64,000 bases of DNA from Incurvaria masculella (lineage: Eukaryota > Arthropoda > Insecta > Lepidoptera > Incurvariidae): the NCBI GenBank assembly GCA_946894095.1, contig OX335649.1:16572001-16636000 (forward strand), given 5' to 3'. Both the position numbers and the translations under genes were made by a program. Positions 8,896-27,775 of this stretch are shown here, piece after piece. A model generated the notes under the pieces. That model saw nothing but the letters and a program-made list of their open reading frames with translations. It was not told the DNA's origin and did no database searches. The number at the start of each line of letters is the position of its first letter. The stretch's first letter is position 1.

Positions 8896-9023
8896 GTGGC
8901 TTAGATGACGTGACCATGGACGCGGCGGACAAGCGCATGCTGGAGCGCGAGGCGCTCCGCAATATGATCCAGCAGTGGAACGCCAACCGGCTTGATCTCT
9001 TCGAGCTCAGCGAGCCCAACGAG
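8896..9023 (+). CDS. cno: Afadin/canoe, first coding exon (start of RA1)
   Basis: Afadin (canoe in flies) is a Rap1-binding, actin-linking scaffold of adherens junctions. A TTGTTGCAG acceptor precedes the exon. Translation probably starts at ATG 8916, in a good context (GACCATGG), giving 36 codons. The peptide carries the diagnostic QQWNANRLDLFE stretch that precedes RA1 in afadins. No in-frame stop lies between the acceptor and the ATG, so an upstream coding exon cannot be ruled out. The exon ends GAG/GTGAGT in phase 0 and joins exon 2 as ...PNE-NLEFHG, matching the family. It is GC-rich at third positions, unlike its surroundings. Confidence 0.93.
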
Positions 9024-9670: not shown

Positions 9671-9779
9671 AATTTGGAGTTCCACGGGGTCATGCGCTTC
9701 TACTTCCAAGACTCGGGCCAGAAGATTGCCACCAAGTGCATCCGAGTTGCCTCTGACGCCACTGTTAGCGACGTAATCG
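9671..9779 (+). CDS. cno: Afadin/canoe exon 2 (RA1 core)
   Basis: 109 nt encoding 36 codons plus one base. The product begins NLEFHGVMRFYFQD, continues through ATKCIRVASDATVSDVI, and covers the first strands and helix of RA1, the ubiquitin-fold domain that binds GTP-loaded Rap1/Ras. The acceptor is TTTACAG and the donor is G/GTTAGT, leaving phase 1. The split codon G+AG gives Glu when joined to exon 3, restoring the family string DVIETL. Conservation to animal afadins is very high. Confidence 0.95.
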
Positions 9780-10715: not shown

Positions 10716-11264
10716 CCGGGAGGTCACGACATTTTTGGTCACGATAAGGTAAATGGCTGAATGGGTTCACATGTTAGAGACCAACCCTCAGATGCGAAAT
10801 ATGTCGGTCTGCCTGCGCCAAGTGGTTGCATTATCTAGATTGGCTATATAAAATAGATGTTAGTATATATGTAGCTGCTGATGAATATACTGATTGTCTA
10901 AAAATATTGTACCTATTAATTATGCACCAATATCTAGTCGGTTTTTTTATTAAATACTTAAATATACCTAAAGTTATATCTGCAACCTAAATCACCTATA
11001 ACTACGAATTTTAACCAAATATTTGTTTACTTTTGGTATTACTAAGTAAGTATGTAGTGATACTTCCATGCTGCATTATTTGTAGCCATTTACCTTATCA
11101 TATATTTTTCTACTATAACTACTTTTTCAAGGCGCCTTTTCTAGGCAACGCAACCACTTGGTGCAGGCAGACCGACACATTTAGCTTCAGTGGGTTGGTC
11201 TTTATCCTGTAAACCCAGTTTCAGCCATTTACGTTATCGTTACCATTTTTGTCGCGACCTCCTA
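10716..11264. mobile_element. MITE-2 copy b in afadin intron 2
   Basis: About 550 bp, collinear over its whole length with the copy at 5381-5928 and with the same long inverted ends (GGGAGGTCACGACATTTTTG and its partner). It is non-coding. Confidence 0.85.
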
Positions 11265-11499
11265 GTCTATAATAATACGTCCCGAAAATTCCCAATGTGG
11301 AAGAAACTCAGAGAGCTTTGACAGATCTTTTAGGTGAGCTCGCTTAGACGCCACCTGTCGTGGTAAATAAGTAGTTTTCTTCCCAAAAACGCAAAGAAAG
11401 AAGGAATATCGGAATACCGCAACAGGCGACAGAATTGTATGAAAGGCCGTATCCTACCTTTAGCATATCACTGATCGAAGGTGTCTTATTGAATTTCAG
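11265..11499 (+). other. Afadin intron 2, end
   Basis: Unique intronic sequence ending in the acceptor TTGAATTTCAG before exon 3. Confidence 0.7.
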
Positions 11500-11690
11500 A
11501 GACGCTGATCGAGAAGTTTCGCCCGGACATGCGCATGCTGTCGCTTGGCTCGTACTCGCTGTGGGAGACGCACGCGCCGACGGACGAGCGGCGGCTGGAG
11601 GCGCACGAGAAGCCGCTGCTGGTGCAGTTAAACTGGCACGCCGACGACCGCGAGGGCCGCTTCCTGCTCAAGTGCACCACCGACGGCGAG
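11500..11690 (+). CDS. cno: Afadin/canoe exon 3, unit 1 (RA1 C-terminal half)
   Basis: Enters in phase 1 from exon 2 (G+AG) and encodes ETLIEKFRPDMRMLS, then a SYSLWETHAPTDERRL segment, then EKPLLVQLNWHADDREGRF and LLKCTTDGE. This is the C-terminal half of RA1. The end at GAG/GTGAGC is phase 0 and would splice directly to exon 4 (13924). This first unit alone would give an ordinary afadin. It is followed by three more in-frame copies of the same module. GC content is much higher than in the flanking introns. Confidence 0.93.
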
Positions 11691-12364
11691 GTGAGCTACT
11701 TATACTGGCTCGCCTTCATACAGTCCATGTTTCAACCGGACATGCGCATGCTGTCGCTCGGCTCGTACTCGCTGTGGGAGACGCACGCGCCGACGGACGA
11801 GCGGAGGCTGGAGGCGCACGAGAAGCCGCTGCTCGTGCAGCTGAACTGGCACGCCGACGACCGCGAGGGCCGCTTCTTGCTCAAGTGCACCACCGACGGC
11901 GAGGTGAGCTACTTATACTGGTTCGCCTTCATACAGTCCAAGTTTCGACCGGACATGCGCATGCTGTCGCTCGGCTCGTACTCGCTGTGGGAGACGCACG
12001 CGCCTACAGACGAGCGGCGGCTGGAGGCGCACGAGAAGCCGCTGCTCGTGCAGCTGAACTGGCACGCCAACGACCGCGAGGGTCGCTTCCTGCTCAAGTG
12101 CACCACCGACGGCGAGGTGAGCTACTTATACTGGCTCGCCTTCATACAGTCCAAGTTTCGACCGGACATGCGCATGCTGTCGCTCAGCTCGTACTTGCTG
12201 TGGGAGAGGCACGCGCCGACGGACGAGCGGCGGCTGGAGGCGCACGAGAAGCCACTGCTAGTGAAGTTGAACTGGCACGCCGACGACCGCGAGGGCCGCT
12301 TCCTCCTCAAGTGCACCACCGACGGCGAGGTGAACTAAATATACTGGCTCGCCTTCATACAGTC
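11526..12364 (+). repeat. Tandem array, four units of 213 bp
   Basis: Direct tandem duplication of an exon half plus 33 bp of following intron. The recombination junction lies in AAGTTTCG, shared by the exon start and the unit junctions. The array ends in a partial fifth junction (CATACAGTCCAAAAAG) that is cut by the MITE-1 insertion at 12372. The high identity between units suggests recent amplification or ongoing conversion. Confidence 0.9.
11691..12329 (+). CDS. cno: Afadin exon 3 units 2-4: three further in-frame RA1 modules
   Basis: Three more copies of the RA1 C-terminal module, each exactly 213 bp (71 codons) after the last; the GACATGCGCATG landmark lies at 11526, 11739, 11952 and 12165. 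The copies are joined by 11 codons (VSYLYWLAFIQ) made from former intron sequence. The frame is open to a stop at 12336-12338. Donors end each unit at 11690, 11903, 12116 and 12329; the first three are GTGAGC and the last is the weaker GTGAAC. All are phase 0 and compatible with exon 4, so donor choice would give one to four modules. The 33-nt gaps are too short to be normal introns. Substitutions such as Asp to Asn and Thr to Arg separate the copies. Whether units 2-4 are used is unknown. Confidence 0.6.
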
Positions 12365-12371
12365 CAAAAAG

Positions 12372-12925
12372 CTTAAGGTGGCCTATCCCGCTCATCTCCC
12401 CATACAAAAGCGGAAAGAAGATCACGCCCATATTTCTTGTCAGAGATCCAAAATTTTGCTCAAAATAGCTTTATTTGATCGAACTAGATGTCTGATGACC
12501 ATTGGCATTGTAAAATTGTTTTTGGTTTCTAAGTTATAAGGTCCGAAAGTTCGAATTTTTCGCGCGTTTTATACAAAAACTTTGGAGGTGGATTACACAA
12601 TTATAAAGTAAGAACATCTTAAAAAGATTAGTCATCATACATAGCTTATTTAATCAAGATTTATAATCTATTTGGTTTTTGTTAGATTTTTATCACAACA
12701 ACGGTCGTGGTTTACTTTTAGCTATAAGTCGTTTTGAAATTAAAATTTTCGTAAATCTTACCAAATCATACACTATGCACATTGCCTTTTTTGTGGACAT
12801 GTTGCATCTTCCTCATCACGGAGCCTGTCTTATTCTTTGAAACAGAAAAGGTCCCAGAGCGCAACAGCACGGTTTTGTACCGTGCCCGCGAAGGAGTTAG
12901 GCCCGCCGGGTTGGGCCACCTTGAG
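12372..12925 (-). mobile_element. MITE-1 inserted at the end of the exon array
   Basis: Complete 554-bp copy, reversed relative to the one at 2404. It is flanked by GTCCAAAAAG (12362-12371) and GTCCAATAAG (12926-12935), a 10-bp target duplication with one mismatch. The insertion lies in the array's terminal junction, so it post-dates at least that duplication step. Confidence 0.88.
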
Positions 12926-12935
12926 GTCCAATAAG

Positions 12936-13111: not shown

Positions 13112-13175
13112 AAAAAACTGGCCAAGTGCGAGTCGGACTCGTACCATCGTATAAGATTTAAAAAAAACACGTTAT
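13112..13175 (+). mobile_element. Repeat-R, 5' fragment
   Basis: ACTGGCCAAGTGCGAGTCGG followed by the ACCATCGTATAAGATTTAA block, then broken off in AT-rich sequence. Confidence 0.65.
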
Positions 13176-13239
13176 TTGTTTTTTAATATTATATTTTATT
13201 TTATTTTACGTATTGTTTATGCTCCTTTAAAAGGCGCAG

Positions 13240-13745
13240 ATAAGGTCTTGGGTAGAGTAATGTTCACATTTGTGGGACGGCTCAGCTTAGCACCTGCTTG
13301 GCTCCCTGGACTCGATACAGCGTCGGGCCGTGCGTCTCGTCGACGATCCCTAAATTTGGAGGCCCTCCAACTTCGAAGGGGTGTAGGGTCACTCTCTGTC
13401 TTCTATCGTCTTTACCATGGAGAATGCTCGTCGCATCTGCCTAACGCTGTTCCTCCGTCCCCTTTATACCTTCGCTCAATGTGGAACAGGAAAAAAATGC
13501 ACGAATTCAGAGACGATATTAAAAAAATAAGAACCCACCGATCCTCTATATCCTTTATCCATAGGGTCGTTAAACAATGGAATGAACTCCCTACCGAGGT
13601 ATTTCCCCTAAATTACGACCTAGGGTCCTTCAAAGGTGGCGTGAAGAAGCACCTGGCCGGTCGGCATGGTCTTTGCAGCCGCCCTGCATGTTCGAAAACC
13701 CATGGGCGTCGTCGGGCACCTTTAGGTCCTGGGGTACGCCGTATG
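13240..13745 (+). pseudogene. CR1-like LINE, ORF2 C-terminal remnant
   Basis: A plus-strand open frame (13176-13760) encodes the region after the reverse transcriptase of CR1-type LINEs: a repeated RRR/ALQLRRGVGSLSVFYRLYHGEC segment, then VVKQWNELPTEVFPLNYDLGSFK and KKHLAGRHG. The RT catalytic part is absent, so this is a 5'-truncated dead copy in afadin intron 3. Similar tails lie at 22930, 32755, 51730 (minus), 56325 (minus) and 58800. Confidence 0.8.
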
Positions 13746-13923
13746 CCGCGCTTGACATAAGAAAAAGACTGACAAAGTACTTCGTAAAGTTCAGGAATCC
13801 GTAATAGTGATGCATGTATGAAAACATGAATGTCTGTAGAGGAAACGAAAAGGGTATGCTGTGATCACATTGATATTACCGTAAACAGGGTTCTGTTGAT
13901 AATTTCTATCTATTTGCTTCCAG

Positions 13924-14083
13924 ATCCCACTGGGGGCGACGACAGAGAAGAGTGACCAGAATTTCAAGCGGAAACTGTCGAAGCGCGAGAAGAAAGAGCT
14001 GAAGAAAAAGGAGAAACTCTCCAGAATGAAGTCGGACGCGACGAATGACGAGAACAAGCCCGTCGCTGAGAAACTCTACACAG
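13924..14083 (+). CDS. cno: Afadin/canoe exon 4 (basic linker)
   Basis: 160 nt after a GCTTCCAG acceptor, entered in phase 0. It encodes a charged linker between RA1 and RA2, with QNFKRKLSKREKKELKKKEK as its hallmark. Animal afadins carry the same NFKR-LSK-EKKE pattern. It is strongly basic and helical, with no globular domain. It ends ACAG/GTGACG in phase 1, and the split codon with exon 5 gives Glu (LYT-E-LPETSF). Confidence 0.93.
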
Positions 14084-14508: not shown

Positions 14509-14634
14509 AGCTGCCGGAGACGTCGTTCACGCGAAGCATCAGCAACCCGGAGGCGGTGATGCGGCGCCGACGCCAGCAGAAGCTCGAGCGGAAGCTGCAG
14601 CAGTTCCGCTCCAAAGATGGCGGCCCCGACACCG
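14509..14634 (+). CDS. cno: Afadin/canoe exon 5 (conserved linker)
   Basis: 126 nt. It encodes ELPETSFTRSISNPEAVM followed by an Arg-rich run and QQKLERKLQQFRSKDG, then ends in PDTG. The PETSFTR-ISNPE motif is one of the most conserved afadin signatures. The acceptor is GCTTGCAG and the donor ACCG/GTACGA (a weak +3 to +5 match), leaving phase 1; G+GC gives Gly at the exon 6 join. Confidence 0.93.
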
Positions 14635-27177: not shown

Positions 27178-27775
27178 ACGCCATCGGTAGAGTAGAGTAA
27201 ATACTGAAAACGGTAGAGCAGAGTACATACTGAAAACGGTAGAGTAAAGTAAATACAAAAAATGTGGAGTAGAGTACATACTGAAAACGGTAGAGTAAAG
27301 TAAATACTAAAAATGTGGAGTAGAGTAGATACTGAAAACGGTAGAGTACATACTGAAAACGGTAGAGCAGAGTACATACTGAAAACGGTAGAGTAAAGTA
27401 AATACTAAAAATGTGGAGTAGAGTACATACTGAAAACGGTAGAGTACATACTGAAAACGGTAGAGCAGAGTACATACTGAAAACGGTAGAGTAAAGTAAA
27501 TACTAAAAATGTGGAGTAGAGTACATACTGAAAACGGTAGAGCAGAGTACATACTGAAAACGGTAGAGTAAAGTAAATACTAAAAATGTAGACTAGAGTA
27601 CATACTGAAAACGGTACAGTACATTCTGAAACCGGTAGACTACATACTGAAAACGGTTAAGTTGCCTACATACTGAAAACGGTAGAGTAAACTGCATACT
27701 GAAAACGGTAGAGTAGACTACATACTTAAAATGGTAGAGTAGAGTACATACTGAAAACGGTAGAGTAGAATTAGT
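27178..27775. repeat. Minisatellite, GGTAGAGTA-CATACTGAAAAC units
   Basis: About 600 bp built from short units of the form GGTAGAGTACATACTGAAAAC. They alternate with a variant, GGTAGAGTAAAGTAAATACT-AAAAATGTGGAG. A higher-order unit of about 75 to 120 bp, combining the two types, repeats several times in the centre and decays at the right edge. The minus-strand frames with FSVCTLL repeats are by-products of the array. Confidence 0.93.

Follow-up and report, generated by a model that had tools for sequence, protein, structure and literature searches.

In the afadin/canoe gene of the moth Incurvaria masculella, the end of exon 3, its 5' splice site and the beginning of intron 3 were found to be present as four head-to-tail units within a single open reading frame. 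We consider it moderately probable that this array arose by a recent tandem duplication of part of an exon, and that donor 1 is the dominant splice site, the extra copies being left mostly intronic with leaky in-frame inclusion as a possibility.

Host gene

The window, namely the whole stretch of 64,000 nucleotides analyzed in this study, belongs to contig C9 (22.3 Mb), one of the 31 contigs that make up the 552-Mb genome, and carries the 5' part of the afadin/canoe gene, with exons 1–7 at 8.9–17.5 kb. The coding part of exon 1 (8916..9023, forward strand like all the exons and units below) ends in the donor GAG|GTGAGT and is 100% identical to residues 1–36 of Cydia afadin. Exon 2 (9671..9779), which ends in phase 1, encodes beta1, beta2 and most of alpha1 of the first Ras-association domain (RA1), and exon 3 (11500..11690), preceded by the acceptor TTTCAG ending at 11499 and closed by the phase-0 donor 1, encodes the rest of RA1. 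This assignment of strands to exons, with beta2 in exon 2 and the repeated unit starting at the end of alpha1, is presumed from RA-domain topology. Exon 4 (13924..14083) provides the acceptor common to all four donors of the array, and is followed in every donor product by exon 5 (14509..14634), which was matched to Cydia afadin. The exon after exon 7 lies about 83 kb further on; in the window together with its downstream sequence, the matches to Cydia afadin continue, with gaps, to about 127.5 kb and cover most of residues 1–1165 plus the C-terminus. Intron 7, about 83 kb long (17485–64000 and on to about 100393 in coordinates of the window plus downstream sequence), fills most of the window and contains a tandem array of 26/51/98-bp units at 27185–27769. 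A genome-wide PF00788 search returned five matches, two of them in the window. A second afadin gene or a processed copy was ruled out, as no other place for the exon was reported in the genome search.

Anatomy of the array

Tandem Repeats Finder detected a period of 213 bp with 4.0 copies, 94% matches and 0% indels (score 1533) at 11514–12367. Direct comparison of unit 1 (11514..11726), unit 2 (11727..11939), unit 3 (11940..12152) and unit 4 (12153..12365) gave pairwise differences of 9 to 16 out of 213 positions without indels, corresponding to 92–96% identity. Each unit comprises 177 of the 191 nucleotides of exon 3, the donor, and 36 nucleotides of the intron (in unit 1, 11514–11690 and 11691–11726, respectively); the units begin 14 nucleotides inside the exon, and hence contain neither its acceptor nor its first 14 nucleotides. 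The exon part of the array matched the Pfam RA domain in four stretches (E 3.9e-27) and afadin in PDB 6amb (E 1.5e-19), and a search of the moth's own genome gave four matches, all at the array, with no other place reported.

These results bore out the gene, the coordinates and the 213-bp period given in an earlier note on this DNA. Its description of a repeated RA1 exon was correct as to the period but not as to the whole exon, given the 177 of 191 exon nucleotides per unit and the absence of the acceptor, and the former intron pieces, put there at 33 bp, amount to 36 nucleotides per unit. The array is not a complete tandem exon duplication, in which both splice sites are copied; as read from this single assembly, its head-to-tail units in an open frame do have the build of a coding minisatellite (VNTR).

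The former intron start (11691..11723) translates as VSYLYWLAFIQ, ends in the cryptic acceptor CATACAG, and recurs at +213, +426 and, with a TAA, at +639. Among the changes distinguishing the units, K1M and R3Q in unit 2 (donor at 11903) fall at near-invariant RA1 positions and are accompanied by L66F in the intron-derived part, D44N occurs in unit 3 (donor at 12116), and G12S, S15L, T19R and Q38K occur in unit 4, which has a weakened donor at 12329 (GTGAAC) with a TAA (12336–12338) just behind it. In total, 23 columns vary among the units, and two of these unite units 2 and 3, a pattern consistent with an initial duplication that then expanded internally.

Directly behind the array lies a MITE-like repeat of 554 bp (12372..12925) with 19-nt terminal inverted repeats that are 84% complementary. 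It is bordered by a target-site duplication, left 12362..12371 (GTCCAAAAAG) and right 12926–12935 (GTCCAATAAG), whose two sides are identical at 9 of 10 positions, and the left side overlaps the 3' edge of the array. Forty of 3343 first-look genome candidates for this repeat were scored, all near full length: the one in the window at 100% and 39 others at 95–97% identity. Judged from this overlap, the insertion may have supplied the break from which the duplication began, or the proximity may be coincidence. By eye, a long open frame at 13155–13760 in intron 3 was seen to have an end resembling the protein tail of a non-LTR retroelement, and the stretch 10740–11230 in intron 2 to have inverted-repeat-like ends of a mobile element.

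Reading frame and splice products

The frame was confirmed to be open across the four units, from 11493 to 12338 (281 codons), where it is closed by TAA at 12336–12338. The donors at 11690, 11903 and 12116 all read GAG|GTGAGC, and the donor at 12329 reads GAG|GTGAAC, without G at +5; the predicted U1 pairing was −9.7 kcal/mol for each of donors 1–3 and −7.0 kcal/mol for donor 4, as compared with −4.3 to −10.8 kcal/mol for ten other scored donors of afadin. When exons 1–2 and the array up to donor 1, 2, 3 or 4 were joined to exons 4–5, all four products were open, with lengths of 231, 302, 373 and 444 amino acids. The array thus has the form of tandem alternative 5' splice sites, in which the acceptor and the downstream exon are shared and the frame is kept (4/4 donor products open). 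The claim that four phase-0 donors join in frame to exon 4 accordingly stands, with the qualification that donor 4 is weakened (GTGAAC).

The open frame and the matching phase of the donors, on both of which the earlier reading had placed weight, are real, but they are not independent facts, since both follow from a period of 213 that is a multiple of three. In intron 7, 59 of the 117 stretches of 36 nucleotides behind GTRAG sites were open, and an array that is both in frame and open can therefore be expected a priori in about 1 of 6 cases (1/3 × 1/2). The openness of units 2 and 3 was also rejected as a sign of selection, because both stay open in 67% of random-change trials.

When exon 2 was joined to the CATACAG/TCC site before unit 2, 3 or 4, a stop followed at residue 143 in each case. 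With no in-phase acceptor available, mutually exclusive exons were ruled out, and to this extent the earlier statement that these sites are out of phase with exon 2 holds. It did not mention, however, that their phase matches that of the donors within the array: joins within the array are open, with an intron of 246 or 459 nucleotides, and lead in frame through exons 1–5 to products of 291 or 362 amino acids. The pyrimidine share of the CATACAG/TCC sites is 0.65, as against 0.47–0.82 in nine scored real acceptors of afadin. The array also contains the configuration associated with intron gain, a tandem duplication that includes AGGT (GAG|GTGAGC in units 1–3, GAG|GTGAAC in unit 4).

Constraint on the units

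Private changes in the exon part numbered, as nonsynonymous/synonymous, 0/3 in unit 1, 2/2 in unit 2, 1/3 in unit 3 and 4/2 in unit 4, with a further 0/3 that were shared or ambiguous. The synonymous excess in units 2 and 3 together (3/5) gave P values of 0.03–0.05 under plain mutation models and 0.06–0.15 with CpG or GC>AT bias, and that in units 2–4 plus the shared changes, which may date from the coding-exon stage, gave 0.003–0.07. In the intron-derived pieces, units 1–3 showed 1 change in 108 sites versus 3 in 36 for unit 4 (Fisher P 0.048, rising to 0.15 once the donor hexamer is excluded); against their own synonymous sites (8/141), the pieces of units 1–3 gave P 0.08. The synonymous excess and the quiet intron-derived pieces are weak signs of some coding constraint on units 2–3.

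The columns of K1M, R3Q and D44N were identical in 313/313, 301/313 and 308/314 homologs, respectively, which form a redundant set, and the new residues were never seen; the K1M column stands at the alignment edge, so that its 313/313 may be inflated. An RA1 under selection should not change at these columns. As 34 of 57 columns are at least 90% conserved, three chance hits on conserved columns are not rare. In unit 4, Q38K falls on a 314/314 column, and G12S, S15L and T19R fall on variable columns. Based on these small counts, unit 1 appears constrained and unit 4 probably free, with units 2–3 leaning to relaxed. The idea that the units are maintained modules was thus unsupported, given the near-invariant RA1 changes in units 2–3, the apparently unconstrained unit 4 and the out-of-frame sister array described below.

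Homologs and phylogeny

Protein searches returned 2719, 257 and 348 proteins, and the best 120 of each, 314 different proteins in all, were examined; Incurvaria masculella is not represented among them. One RA1 unit was present in 313 of these 314 listed homologs, and two were present, in another arrangement, in P0121. In this protein of Lutzomyia longipalpis (405 aa), a second exon 2–3 stretch of RA1 follows RA2, perhaps through an assembly or gene-model error. The nematode protein P0241, a candidate for multiple units by its high score, was rejected because it has one unit. Three moth-like short ORFs, P0242–P0244, continue beyond the donor for 24, 32 and 4 residues and show no second unit there; they lie on short contigs and may stop where these end. 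The linker VSYLYWLAFIQ was found in 0 of the 314 listed homologs, and none of them had a second unit arranged as in the array. The best unit identity among them was 90%, and the moth's own sequence APTDERRLEAHEKP, present in all four units, occurred in 0/314; the species itself is thus not among the listed homologs, and the lack of multi-unit forms there says nothing about this moth. The presence of APTDERRLEAHEKP in all four units further implies that the duplication postdates the changes in this sequence, or that the units were homogenized.

In a tree of 29 proteins, built by a quick method with a midpoint root and SH-aLRT support, and rough in that Arctia and Epargyreus fall among nymphalids, the gene was placed outside a 21-row clade of Cydia, pyraloids, noctuids and butterflies (support 98). 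Comparison with related moth afadins, which had been proposed earlier, gave one unit each in the 22 lepidopteran or moth-like afadins of the tree, so that a conserved lepidopteran feature was rejected. No report of the afadin array was seen among the papers listed in literature searches on afadin/canoe in Lepidoptera, and on afadin with tandem duplication, Ras-association and moths.

A second array in a BTB-BACK exon

A second array was noticed in the 140 kb of downstream sequence (L018:6051–6399; C9:16772051–16772399), with a period of 140 bp, 2.5 copies and 97% matches. It copies the end of a BTB-BACK exon, the donor CAG|GTACGT and 10 intron nucleotides, and thus has the same build as the afadin array, from which it is 188 kb apart. 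The BACK match had an E value of 6.1e-6, and BTB was matched (E 4e-10) in an exon-like stretch 4.7 kb before, taken as the same gene. The second donor is identical and lies 140 bp further on, where its use shifts the frame, and, if the first donor is read through, translation stops eight codons later. If this gene is assumed to be working, it must therefore prefer the first donor over an identical second one. By analogy, this one case argues that such arrays arise regardless of frame, and donor 1 is probably dominant in afadin as well. In all, two exon-end arrays were noticed in 204 kb without systematic exon annotation.

Proposed origin and alternatives

In Drosophila, deletion of RA1 nearly abolishes Canoe function, RA1 being essential (PMC11698047), so that a working RA1 must be made. 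RA1 also shows the highest conservation of all domains when Drosophila and Tribolium are compared (PMC10399776). In models that agree with the H-Ras-bound crystal structure of afadin RA1, RA domains pair with switch I of Rap1 via beta2, and a full second RA1 in place of RA2 had little or no effect (PMC11698047). Because the extra units are without the beta2 binding strand, they would not be expected to bind Rap1 and would serve as a spacer at most.

According to the origin that we favor, a lineage-specific and presumably recent tandem duplication of the last 177 nucleotides of exon 3, the donor and 36 intron nucleotides led to the four copies, and created four tandem 5' splice sites, all in frame, between common acceptors upstream (11499) and downstream (13923). 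Most transcripts would use donor 1 and encode an ordinary one-copy afadin, with units 2–4 left in intron 3, and the occasional transcript spliced at donor 2 or 3 would encode an afadin in which RA1 is followed by a further 71 or 142 residues of incomplete RA1. Such longer forms would be tolerated because they are in frame, not because they are needed, and unit 4, judging from its changes, appears to be decaying. Although rare, the array is probably one of the ordinary by-products of tandem duplication. Against a dominant donor 1, splicing often prefers the intron-proximal of several equal 5' splice sites, a preference that would point to donor 3. Which of several competing donors is used depends on bound factors, and donor use is accordingly unpredictable from strength alone (PMC5585400). 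A duplication size divisible by three permits differential splicing (PMC2891723), and duplicated exons of higher identity have more split-read support (PMC9013439), which by analogy speaks for some expression of the extra copies.

Were donor 1 used exclusively, units 2–4 would be a never-translated, drifting intronic relic. The changes at conserved positions, the weakened donor 4 with a stop behind it and the out-of-frame sister array agree with this explanation, which we nevertheless regard as unlikely, since three identical donors in a nearly identical exonic context make exclusive use hard to explain and since the synonymous bias, though mild, points the other way. Somewhat less likely still is regulated splicing of copy number, in which donor choice would yield afadins with one, two or three (rarely four) C-terminal halves of RA1 that differ functionally in junction anchoring. 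The four donor products open into exons 4–5, the identity of donors 1–3, the synonymous excess and the quiet linkers of units 1–3 are what such regulation would lead one to expect; the altered near-invariant RA1 residues in units 2 and 3 argue against it, as does the absence of the linker and of a like-arranged second unit from the 314 listed homologs, this species not being among them. Moreover, the extra units are without beta1, beta2 and most of alpha1, and would thus be unable to form an RA domain. A bolder version, to which we give a small chance, is a splice-selected coding minisatellite variable in copy number, whose products would contain the C-terminal half of RA1 once, twice or three times, the 71-residue modules serving as a variable spacer that separates RA1 from the remainder of afadin and tunes how the protein responds to Rap1 or tension.

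In another alternative, an intron has been gained within the array, with donor 1 spliced to the CATACAG/TCC site of unit 3 or 4, or donor 2 to that of unit 4, which would yield proteins of two or three copies joined through a single residue. Introns are described as arising through tandem duplication (PMC2891723, PMC4974935), the joins are in frame and the pyrimidine share lies within the range of real acceptors; as the distance from a donor to the next acceptor is 33 nucleotides and the shortest other intron 246, we hold this to be very improbable. It is just as hard to believe that the array is an assembly artefact and that the true copy number is one or otherwise different. The presence of a similar array nearby might point to a systematic error, but the 23 variable columns of the units show structure (two variants being common to units 2 and 3), the flanks differ from the units, and the contig, at 22.3 Mb, is chromosome-sized.

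Comparison with known systems

On the partial tandem duplication favored above, the array freezes an early step in the multiplication of exons and splice sites, at which an exon end, a donor and a scrap of intron were copied together. The afadin array (213 bp, in frame) and the BTB-BACK array (140 bp, out of frame) form a natural test of first-donor preference among identical donors in insects and of the tolerance of in-frame accidents in an essential gene. A change behind RA1, the essential domain of afadin, would be of consequence only if the longer forms are produced.

Tandem duplication is described as a source of new introns in potato and Drosophila (PMC4974935, PMC2891723), and the likeness to the afadin array consists in the tandem duplication of a stretch with splice signals. 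In potato, however, the 3' side of an intron and its acceptor were duplicated (PMC4974935), whereas in afadin it is the 5' side and the donor, in four copies, and a new intron is hypothetical. Like alternative tandem 5' splice sites, the array has several donors that lead in frame to a single acceptor and downstream exon; its donors differ in having been born by copying 177 exon nucleotides, so that each later donor adds a further copy of the exon end. Mutually exclusive exons likewise are tandem exon copies in one gene, but the afadin copies, without an in-phase acceptor, cannot replace exon 3. Relative to afadin/canoe RA1 itself, unit 1 is the ordinary RA1 exon, and units 2–4 repeat only the C-terminal half of the domain.
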